Origin: Alteraurantiacibacter aquimixticola
GTDB taxonomy: Bacteria; Pseudomonadota; Alphaproteobacteria; Sphingomonadales; Sphingomonadaceae
Reading direction: 5' to 3'
Length of the DNA stretch: 64,000 nucleotides
Assembly (NCBI RefSeq): GCF_004965515.1
Contig: NZ_SSHH01000001.1
Coordinates: 313,280 to 377,279, forward strand
Under the pieces are notes generated by a model. It saw only the letters and a program-made list of their open reading frames with translations. It did not search any database and was not told the DNA's origin. Each line of letters opens with the position of its first letter. Positions within the stretch are counted from its first letter, which is position 1. This document shows positions 56,536 through 58,437 of this stretch, piece after piece. The position numbers were made by a program, and so were the translations under genes.

Positions 56536-56560
56536 GGAACGGATGGTGCCTTTTCCCGTT
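56536..56560 (+). promoter_or_regulatory. EcfG-type general stress promoter of receiver gene
   Basis: GGAAC (56536-56540), 16-bp spacer, CGTT (56557-56560): an exact match to the alphaproteobacterial EcfG promoter GGAAC-N16/17-CGTT, ending 43 bp before the ATG at 56604. The gene should be induced by the PhyR-NepR-EcfG partner switch. Confidence 0.85.
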
Positions 56561-56603: not shown

Positions 56604-57038
56604 ATGGCCAGCGTAAAGCACAAAAATCCGAAGTCCGGCACGCGGAACGTCCGGGTGCTGCTGGTGGAAGACGATCCTATCCTCTCGCTCGATCTGGAGC
56701 AGGCGCTGCGCGAAGCGGGCGCGAACGATGTCGTGATCTGTGCCAGCATGGCAGCCACCGTTGCCGAGCTGGAGCGCAAGGCCCCCGATGCGATTATCCT
56801 CGATGTGCACCTGGCCGATCGCGACGACGGCTGGGCGCTGGCGGAAATCGTCAGCATGCTGGGTCCGAAAAAGCCGCGCATCGCCTTTTCGACCGGTTCG
56901 CCGCAGGATATCCCGCCGCAAGTGCGCGAGATGGGTTGTGTGTTCGAAAAGCCCTATGATCCGGCGCAGCTTGCCGACGTCCTGCTCAACCAGAAGAAGA
57001 CCGGCTTTATCGCCCGCCTGCGCGGAGCGCTTGGCTAA
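56604..57038 (+). CDS. Single-domain response regulator (SdrG-like)
   Basis: The product has 144 residues: a lone receiver. Phosphorylation residues: acidic pair in LLVEDDPILS, phospho-acceptor Asp67 in IILDVHLADRD, Ser/Thr switch in IAFSTGSP and Lys in FEKPYDP. The FSTGSP segment resembles the FATGUY-type receivers that regulate the general stress response in sphingomonads, such as SdrG, but differs at its glycine-tyrosine end. It lacks an output domain, so it should act as a phosphorylation sink or signal relay. The exact EcfG promoter before it and its place beside phyR support the stress link. Confidence 0.88.
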   Translation: MASVKHKNPKSGTRNVRVLLVEDDPILSLDLEQALREAGANDVVICASMAATVAELERKAPDAIILDVHLADRDDGWALAEIVSMLGPKKPRIAFSTGSPQDIPPQVREMGCVFEKPYDPAQLADVLLNQKKTGFIARLRGALG

Positions 57039-57245: not shown

Positions 57246-57356
57246 GGCCCTACCCCCAAGTAGCATCGATGCACCCATTTTACTGCGCCGGGCGATTCGC
57301 GTGCGTGATCGGCGTCACACCGCGAAAAAACTGCGTGAGGTCGGGGGTGGGAAACC

Positions 57357-57447
57357 AAAAAGGCCTCCGCCCGGTTTCGAGCGGAGGCCTTTCGGGATCG
57401 TGTCACCGGCCGCTTGGACGGGAGGGGGGATCTCGGCGGGTGACAGG
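57357..57447 (-). ncRNA. Candidate stress-induced small RNA with C-rich (anti-Shine-Dalgarno-like) loop
   Basis: On the minus strand an EcfG-like promoter (GGAAC 57477-57473, 16 bp, CATT 57456-57453) is followed by two hairpins. Hairpin 1 (57445 to 57401) pairs TGTCACC with GGTGACA and GCCG with CGGC, exposing a 21-nt loop that contains CCCCCCTCCC. Hairpin 2 (57392 to 57359) pairs AAAGGCCTCCGC with GCGGAGGCCTTT and is followed by TTGG, an intrinsic terminator. The predicted RNA is about 90 nt. C-rich loops complementary to GGAGG are known in alphaproteobacterial regulatory RNAs. No gene lies between promoter and terminator. Expression is predicted, not shown. Confidence 0.62.
57359..57392 (-). 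terminator. Intrinsic terminator in phyR upstream region
   Basis: Perfect 12-bp arms AAAGGCCTCCGC and GCGGAGGCCTTT with a 10-nt loop; on the minus strand it continues to a run of five T. It points away from phyR toward 57.0 kb and would end the candidate small RNA. Confidence 0.82.
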
Positions 57448-57452
57448 GGGAT

Positions 57453-57477
57453 AATGCGCGGAAAAGCCACCGGTTCC
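57453..57477 (-). promoter_or_regulatory. EcfG-like promoter for the minus-strand small RNA
   Basis: GGAAC at 57477-57473, 16-bp spacer, CATT at 57456-57453 on the minus strand. The -35 matches exactly; the -10 differs from CGTT by one base. It lies 108 bp from the phyR promoter, back to back with it. Confidence 0.55.
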
Positions 57478-57584
57478 CGGCGCTTTGCAAAAAACTTCCG
57501 CAATGATTCAGCGGGGCGGCGGGCCACGGCTTGCAATTGCTTCCACATGGTTCGATGGCAGGAACAAGCTATTGGCTGGGGGCA

Positions 57585-57609
57585 GGAACCCATCGCAAAG
57601 CAGTGCGTT
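57585..57609 (+). promoter_or_regulatory. EcfG-type promoter of phyR
   Basis: GGAAC (57585-57589), 16-bp spacer, CGTT (57606-57609), ending 33 bp before the phyR start. Exact match to the consensus, implying positive autoregulation of the stress response. Confidence 0.88.
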
Positions 57610-57642
57610 GGAAGCGAACCATCAACCGGGAAGGGTTATTGC

Positions 57643-58437
57643 ATGTCAATCGGGGCCGAAGTCGCCGCTCATCTTCCGTATCTGCGTCGCTATGCGCGCG
57701 CTCTCACCGGGTCGCAACAGACCGGTGATGCCTTTGTCAAAGCTACGCTGGAAGCAGCCCTCGCCGATGCCGAAGTCGCCGAAAGCCTGCGCGGCGGGCG
57801 CGTCCCGCTCTACCGCGCATTCAACAAGATGTGGTCCAGCGCCTATCTCGAGGTTGCCGGGAATGACGGTGGCGCCTCGCTGCATGAGGTTGCCGCGCAG
57901 GACCAGCTGAAGAAAATCACGCCGGTCAACCGTCAGGCGCTGCTGCTCACCACTGTCGAGGACTTCACGCCGGAAGAAGCGGGCGAGATCATGGACATGT
58001 CCGCTGCGGATGTGGAAGCGCTGGTGCGCGAGGCGGTGTCCGAGATCGATCGCGAAAGCGCCACGAGCGTGCTGATTATCGAGGACGAGCCGCTGATTTC
58101 GATGCAGCTGGAAGACCTCGTCCGCTCGCTAGGCCACGATATCTGCGGTACGGCCGCCACGCGCACACAGGCGCAGGAAGTGGTCGCCAAGGCAACGCCG
58201 GGCCTGGTGCTTGCCGACATCCAGCTGGCCGACGGGTCCTCGGGCCTTGATGCGGTGGATGATATCCTCGCCGATATCAGCGTGCCGGTGATCTTCATCA
58301 CCGCTTACCCTGAGCGCCTGCTGACGGGGGACCGGCCCGAGCCGACCTACCTCATCACCAAGCCGTTCCAGGAAGACACGGTGCGCGCGGCGATCAGCCA
58401 GGCGCTGTTCTTCGGCTCCAGCCGCCCGCTTTCCTGA
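57643..58437 (+). CDS. phyR: General stress response anti-anti-sigma regulator PhyR
   Basis: The product has 264 residues. The first 125 or so residues imitate an ECF sigma factor (AHLPYLRRYARALTGSQQTGD, LTTVEDFTPEEAGEIMDMS), and residues about 138-258 are a receiver: SVLIIEDEPLISMQ, phospho-Asp192 in VLADIQLADG, Thr in FITAYPERL, Lys in ITKPF. Phosphorylated PhyR captures the anti-sigma NepR and so frees EcfG. No nepR, ecfG or PhyP-like kinase gene is in the window, an unusual separation since nepR is often next to phyR. I take the ATG at 57643, 33 bp after the EcfG promoter, rather than the long frame starting at 57154. Confidence 0.95.
   Translation: MSIGAEVAAHLPYLRRYARALTGSQQTGDAFVKATLEAALADAEVAESLRGGRVPLYRAFNKMWSSAYLEVAGNDGGASLHEVAAQDQLKKITPVNRQALLLTTVEDFTPEEAGEIMDMSAADVEALVREAVSEIDRESATSVLIIEDEPLISMQLEDLVRSLGHDICGTAATRTQAQEVVAKATPGLVLADIQLADGSSGLDAVDDILADISVPVIFITAYPERLLTGDRPEPTYLITKPFQEDTVRAAISQALFFGSSRPLS

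Follow-up and report, generated by a model that had tools for sequence, protein, structure and literature searches.

We identified a gene for a predicted small RNA (sRNA) of ~91 nt on the minus strand of the window, i.e., the whole 64,000-nt stretch of DNA analysed. The gene probably encodes a trans-acting sRNA of the general stress response that would be transcribed by EcfG and pair with other RNAs through a C-rich loop. Conservation of its promoter, structure and near-invariant loop, its single copy and its position were all directly observed. The features of the region are as follows.

57246 to 57642: gap between a 65-codon frame and phyR, housing the sRNA gene on the minus strand
57477 to 57473, minus strand: GGAAC, -35 element of the EcfG-type promoter of the sRNA (GGAAC-N16/17 ahead of the RNA in all 110 loci)
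57456 to 57453, minus strand: CATT, -10 element of the same promoter, 16 nt from the -35
57357 to 57447, minus strand: predicted small RNA, ~91 nt (match to model R1, conservation, covariation)
57401 to 57445, minus strand: 5' stem-loop of 7 bp, a C-C mismatch and 4 bp (fold, consensus helix)
57413 to 57433, minus strand: exposed 21-nt loop AGATCCCCCCTCCCGTCCAAG, which contains CCCCCCTCCC (fold, conservation)
57393 to 57400, minus strand: single-stranded linker CGATCCCG (conserved)
57357 to 57392, minus strand: intrinsic terminator, a perfect 12-bp stem AAAGGCCTCCGC...GCGGAGGCCTTT plus five T (fold, consensus helix)
57585 to 57609, plus strand: EcfG-type promoter of phyR, GGAAC-N16-CGTT (pattern match)
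57643 to 58437, plus strand: phyR, encoding 264 aa with sigma-like domains and a receiver (Pfam PF22029, PF22233, PF00072)
56536 to 56560, plus strand: EcfG-type promoter of the response regulator gene, GGAAC-N16-CGTT (pattern match)
56604 to 57038, plus strand: response regulator of a single domain, carrying an FSTG motif and convergent with the sRNA (motif)
57245 to 57048, minus strand: 65-codon frame starting 112 nt past the terminator

The 5' end of the sRNA was placed from the promoter (about ±2 nt) and the 3' end from the terminator. Within the 5' stem (57445-57401), UGUCACC/GGUGACA and GCCG/CGGC pairs flank the single C-C mismatch. The 99-nt stretch holding the sRNA folds at -48 kcal/mol, against -28.3 (SD 3.2) for 200 dinucleotide shuffles (z -6.1), none of which (0/200) was as stable. 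The initial annotation had described a GGAAC-N16-CATT promoter, a hairpin with a 21-nt loop, a 12-bp terminator and five T; this layout is exact and far above chance. Likewise, its statement that no protein gene lies in the path agrees with RNA lengths that leave remainders of 0, 1 and 2 on division by three in 38, 24 and 26 of 88 sequences. The 65-codon frame may not be a gene, having no Pfam match and no relative in any of 80 named loci (the best 80 of 332; see below). A GGAAC-N16/17-CRTT match alone is not rare, with three in the 64-kb window as compared with 1.2 expected from mononucleotide shuffling, and it is therefore on conservation that we base the conclusion that the element is not a chance one. 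Like trans-acting sRNAs, it has its own promoter, its own terminator, a conserved structure and no conserved reading frame. Judged from these sequence features, the sRNA is very probably real and under EcfG control.

Conservation, covariation and distribution

To follow the region at the DNA level, a 151-nt query covering the sRNA was used. It matched 35 of 37 same-genus genomes (own included), one of the two genomes without a match being 98% complete, and none of 24 genomes from other genera. Amongst the 35 matches, 23 start at query position 46-53, the stem and expected transcript start, which indicates that the transcript is the best-kept part; most stop at the terminator.

Loci further afield were chosen by phyR, as the best 80 of 332 relatives in a PhyR protein scan (the 80 named loci). 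Their titles mostly give Erythrobacteraceae genera, i.e., Aurantiacibacter, Qipengyuania, Croceicoccus, Croceibacterium, Tsuneonella, Altererythrobacter, Erythrobacter and others, some reading only uncultured Sphingomonadaceae or Alphaproteobacteria. The sRNA was present in all 80 of these best 80 of 332 loci, and in 110 of 110 loci examined, one of which (L067) lies on a contig that ends after the first 45 nt of the RNA. The first 30 of the 110 (L001-L030) partly duplicate species of the others (L031-L110), and the 110 hold 88 distinct RNA sequences. Using a promoter pattern that allowed N15-N18 and C[AG]T[TA], no locus was dropped from the count, as all 110 fitted it: the spacing is GGAAC-N16 in 108 and N17 in two, and the -10 box, 5-8 nt ahead of the stem, is CATT in 98, CGTA in eight and CGTT in four. 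In 14 further copies found by the RNA model, mostly in more distant genomes, GGAAC was kept in 14/14 and the -10 box in 12/14, the divergent copies L189 and L191 keeping GGAAC without C[AG]T[TA] at the right spacing.

An RNAalifold consensus of 60 of the 88 distinct sequences comprised 20 pairs. In 13 of these, 10 of which belong to the terminator, both partners change with pairing preserved. Consensus cells were paired in 97.4% of cases; the corresponding figures were 90.9% for shuffles and no more than 52% for slid partners, and the structure lay above both controls on every measure. The terminator stem covaries strongly, with two-sided changes in 10 of the 12 pairs of its consensus helix. 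The 5' stem covaries weakly: 97.3% of the cells in its 8-pair consensus helix are paired, two pairs are invariant and so uninformative, and three of the eight show a two-sided change, each in a single sequence, for which reason its support is weaker than that of the terminator. At least four T follow the terminator stem in 92 of 99 complete RNAs; seven have no run of four. The initial annotation had named unconserved loop or stems amongst related species as one finding that would count against it; both proved to be conserved across relatives.

In the window's own genome, the covariance model R1 gave a single strong match (101.2 bits, E 2.5e-20). The three others of the four R1 matches there (E 0.004-0.02), one of which lies on the opposite strand of the sRNA, were set aside as chance. 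In a Sphingomonadales sample of 296 genomes, R1 matched 108 at E<=0.01, of which 92 also passed E<=1e-5. A second model, R2, built from divergent copies, matched 92 of the 296 genomes at E<=1e-4, once in each and in 24 of 79 genera, and brought no new lineages beyond R1. The 92 genomes from R1 at E<=1e-5 and the 92 from R2 at E<=1e-4 are all labelled as the window's family, and since the remaining 204 of 296 have no R2 match, the sRNA is not general to the order. At the class level, 23 of 385 genomes matched R1 at E<=0.01; four matches were strong (E<=2.3e-18), all in the window's family. The next best in the class sample, G365 (E 8.8e-6), was rejected as one of six chance loci. Inspection of 20 loci that came from the RNA model alone showed phyR in the stretch for 14; the six others (L175-L180) lack both phyR and the promoter and were taken as chance terminator matches, leaving 14/14 with phyR. 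A pattern independent of the loop (promoter plus TRTCAC) matched 108 of 296 genomes as compared with 34 for the reversed control, many of its matches falling just before R1 matches.

The stress-response neighbourhood

In line with the initial annotation, an EcfG-type promoter stands ahead of a terminated, non-coding C-rich-loop RNA that is divergent from phyR, and phyR has such a promoter of its own. Amongst the 80 named loci (the best 80 of 332), the sRNA points away from phyR throughout, and the phyR promoter GGAAC-N16/17-CGTT was found in 78, all with CGTT. The description of the two genes as back to back, however, holds for only part of this set. The distance is 133-322 bp in 42 of the best 80 of 332 loci and 955-1102 bp in the other 38, in which a Crp/Fnr-type gene (a label assigned from sequence by eye) separates the two, as in L103:3118-3864.

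On its 3' side the sRNA faces the convergent response regulator gene in 76 of the 80 named loci (best 80 of 332), at a median distance of ~92 nt. An F[AS]TG motif is present in the regulator of all 76, and its promoter was found in 60 of 76 (59 CGTT, one CATT; reversed control 0/76). The protein is reminiscent of the SdrG type and is likely a stress regulator of the SdrG/MrrA type, belonging to the same module. Given the same kind of promoter and the shared neighbourhood, the sRNA, phyR and the response regulator look like one stress module.

The -10 of the sRNA promoter is CATT in 70, CGTA in eight and CGTT in two of the 80 named loci (best 80 of 332), and its CATT, which departs from the canonical CGTT, differs consistently from the CGTT of the neighbouring promoters in the same loci. 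In Sphingopyxis granuli, the -10 of such promoters is described as flexible, which might, according to the authors, be relevant to the two EcfG paralogues (PMC7083833).

Of the 80 named loci (best 80 of 332), 53 contain an EcfG match as well as phyR. In the window's own genome, nepR adjoins a gene for a 210-aa sigma factor (L171, G000:C1:286587), ~84 kb from phyR, and we took this sigma factor to be EcfG. In two loci, L173:3032-3127 and L174:2999-3094, divergent copies of the sRNA sit between phyR and ecfG, a possible link towards GsrN-like arrangements.

Relation to GsrN and other C-rich-loop RNAs

C-rich loops directed against ribosome sites are a feature of stress RNAs in alphaproteobacteria, amongst them the CcsR or "cuckoo" RNAs, which carry the motif CCUCCUCCC and are linked to other sigma factors. 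This motif was found in none of 100 sRNA loops. At gathering score, Rfam placed no family on the sRNA, its matches in the window being two tRNAs elsewhere. At E<=5, four below-threshold matches fell in the gap (ctRNA_p42d twice, best E 0.014; sodF_sRNA; P17) and were taken as chance.

The closest counterpart is GsrN of Caulobacter crescentus, a σT-dependent RNA that pairs with G-rich targets through a cytosine-rich loop in its 5' part; it activates katG, its best-studied target, and pairing was rescued by compensatory mutations (PMC5869019). GsrN-like genes near the stress locus have been predicted in Caulobacteraceae, Rhizobiaceae, Brucella, Rhodopseudomonas and Bradyrhizobium (PMC5869019). 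The position of the sRNA, which the initial annotation knew from no earlier description, is thus not wholly new: an RNA of this kind, in roughly this place, is known from GsrN and GsrN-like RNAs near sigT and phyR (PMC5869019). The accessible open-licence literature yielded no description of the present sRNA in sphingomonads. A figure legend in the GsrN publication lists Erythrobacter litoralis as having no apparent gsrN-like gene (PMC5869019). E. litoralis SNB-035 (L103) carries the present sRNA, 965 bp from phyR, and may differ from the strain in that publication.

For comparison, GsrN-type loci were collected with a search pattern deduced from interaction strings that PMC5869019 lists in its Table 1. 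It matched four of the 385 class genomes, of which L225, beside phyR, was the one convincing case, and 27 of 60 genomes in the family of L225, taken as Caulobacteraceae, as compared with five for the reversed control. A recognisable promoter was present in 13 of the 27 loci, and phyR in the stretch for 11 of these 13.

GsrN and the present sRNA are alike in having a promoter of the general-stress sigma factor, an exposed C-rich 5' loop, a 3' intrinsic terminator and a length of ~100 nt; both adjoin phyR in many relatives, and neither encodes a protein. They differ in structure: GsrN-type RNAs are closed by a long stem with a hairpin inside it, their C run, which GACTTGA follows, lying in an internal loop, whereas the sRNA is a simple hairpin with CCGAGACCCCCCCTCCCGTCCAAGCGG on a short stem. 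Most sRNA copies have CATT as the -10; the 13 GsrN-type promoters all have CGTT, which was part of the search pattern. Moreover, no covariance model matched in either direction. The Rfam family RF01529 (CC3552, 106 positions) appears to be GsrN, since it covers both GsrN-type RNAs compared, L291 (101.3 bits) and L296 (73.2 bits), both Caulobacteraceae-like. It matched nothing in the window at gathering score and nothing in 57250-57640 at E<=5, and did not match L103 or L173 at gathering score. Conversely, R1 found no match at the GsrN position in the 27 GsrN-type loci, its seven weak matches (E<=1) lying elsewhere.

By description, the sRNA also resembles two other groups. The GsrN-like RNAs of Rhizobiaceae share an EcfG site, a place near the stress locus and an exposed cytosine-rich 5' loop, the published calls resting on expression, position and the promoter site (PMC5869019). 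PmaR of Agrobacterium has a long stem and an accessible C-rich regulatory loop, and regulates most of its targets positively; EcfG control or a link to phyR is absent from the accessible part of its description (PMC6234868).

That the sRNA is a true GsrN homologue, diverged past recognition, is a reading we take seriously, if at somewhat less than an even chance. The same kind of promoter, the neighbourhood and the order of parts (promoter, C-rich loop, terminator) speak for it, as do the frequent presence of phyR beside GsrN-type genes and the L173 and L174 variants, with their other C-rich loops between phyR and ecfG. Against it stand the failure of RF01529 and R1 to cross-match and the long closing stem with its inner hairpin, set against the simple hairpin of the sRNA. 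Taken together, the comparison suggests that the sRNA is likely a new family, GsrN-like in kind, that likely does the same kind of work as GsrN. It is possible, if rather doubtful, that C-rich-loop sRNAs were gained repeatedly at the stress locus; the present family would then be separate from GsrN, with a rigid loop and a CATT -10 that would give it a threshold or timing of its own.

Loop, candidate targets and proposed mechanism

Loop motifs were counted on the stem-loop alone in 100 distinct RNAs, i.e., the 88 and 12 further ones. The loop is less variable than the terminator: UCCCGUCC is kept in 98 of the 100, CCUCC in 95 and five or more consecutive C in 98, and the linker CGATCC is kept in 93, one of the seven exceptions being a cut-off sequence. 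In L185 and L186 the C run is absent and CTCCCGTCC is kept; L173 and L174 have a different C-rich loop. Given this retention, and CTCCCGTCC persisting without the C run, the seed likely includes UCCCGUCC and not solely the anti-ribosome-site C run that the initial annotation had stressed. Repression of translation through GGAGG ribosome sites, which that annotation had proposed, would be one candidate mode of action; GsrN, the nearest analogue, activates katG (PMC5869019).

Target prediction against 5' leaders, as the initial annotation had proposed, gave little. Leaders of the neighbouring genes (phyR, the response regulator, a GNAT-like gene, crp, nepR and ecfG) were little or no more complementary to the loop than shuffles, with median z from -0.76 (phyR, the best) to +0.36. 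In each of the 13 genomes searched, the loop had fewer near-complements than the reversed control, with no conserved target. In the window's own genome, a DUF3137 gene (L251:545-1498) carries GGACGGGAAGGGG two bases ahead of its ATG, 12/13 complementary to the loop, and L262 keeps 11 consecutive bases of this site. As a conserved full-length target it was dropped, because the leaders of 14 relatives, those with a clearly placed start amongst 22 loci and read by eye, share only the G-rich ribosome site. Also rejected as targets were GGCCGGGAGGGGG sites, found in six of nine same-genus genomes searched (the own genome, one of the nine, lacks them), since in L245 they make up the two arms of an inverted repeat.

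A loop kept near letter-for-letter over many genera exceeds the needs of a loose C-rich seed, and no target stands out; both points would suit a protein-binding site, with the sRNA as a sponge for an RNA-binding protein. We nevertheless think this unlikely, as GsrN acts by pairing (PMC5869019) and the retention of CTCCCGTCC without the C run in L185 and L186 fits a pairing seed. It is very improbable that the sRNA acts in cis on phyR or the response regulator, as an antisense or terminator element. Its place between both genes and a terminator convergent with the response regulator would fit, but no overlap is expected with a phyR transcript started at 57585-57609, phyR lies ~1 kb away behind the Crp/Fnr-type gene in 38 of the best 80 of 332 loci, and a mere terminator needs neither a promoter nor a near-invariant loop. 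Hardly credible is an attenuator or leader of a same-strand downstream gene, suggested by the 65-codon frame 112 nt past the terminator and by L173 and L174, where the terminator has no four-T run and ecfG follows on the same strand ~210-260 nt downstream, but opposed by the lack of relatives of that frame and the convergent response regulator on the 3' side in 76 of the 80 named loci (best 80 of 332 for both), and by the GGAAC-N17-CGTT that ecfG in L173 and L174 has of its own between the RNA and its start.

For a trans-acting sRNA of the general stress response, we propose the following course. Under stress, phosphorylated PhyR would titrate NepR and so free EcfG, which would transcribe phyR, the single-domain response regulator and the ~91-nt sRNA. 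The latter would end at its own terminator, and its short stem would hold the C-rich loop open. The loop seed UCCCGUCC, together with the adjoining C run, may pair with G-rich stretches of mRNAs and thereby alter how these are translated or how stable they are, in the manner of Caulobacter GsrN. From the conserved features we infer transcription, dependence on EcfG, pairing and the existence of targets, on which the effect may be repression or activation.

For Erythrobacteraceae and their relatives, the sRNA would thus represent a putative post-transcriptional arm of the general stress response; in Erythrobacter litoralis, the GsrN study recorded no such RNA (PMC5869019). The family is well bounded, being single copy and described by a covariance model. 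It makes it possible to test if C-rich-loop RNAs next to the PhyR-NepR-EcfG switch are ancestral to the stress response of alphaproteobacteria or were arrived at several times.
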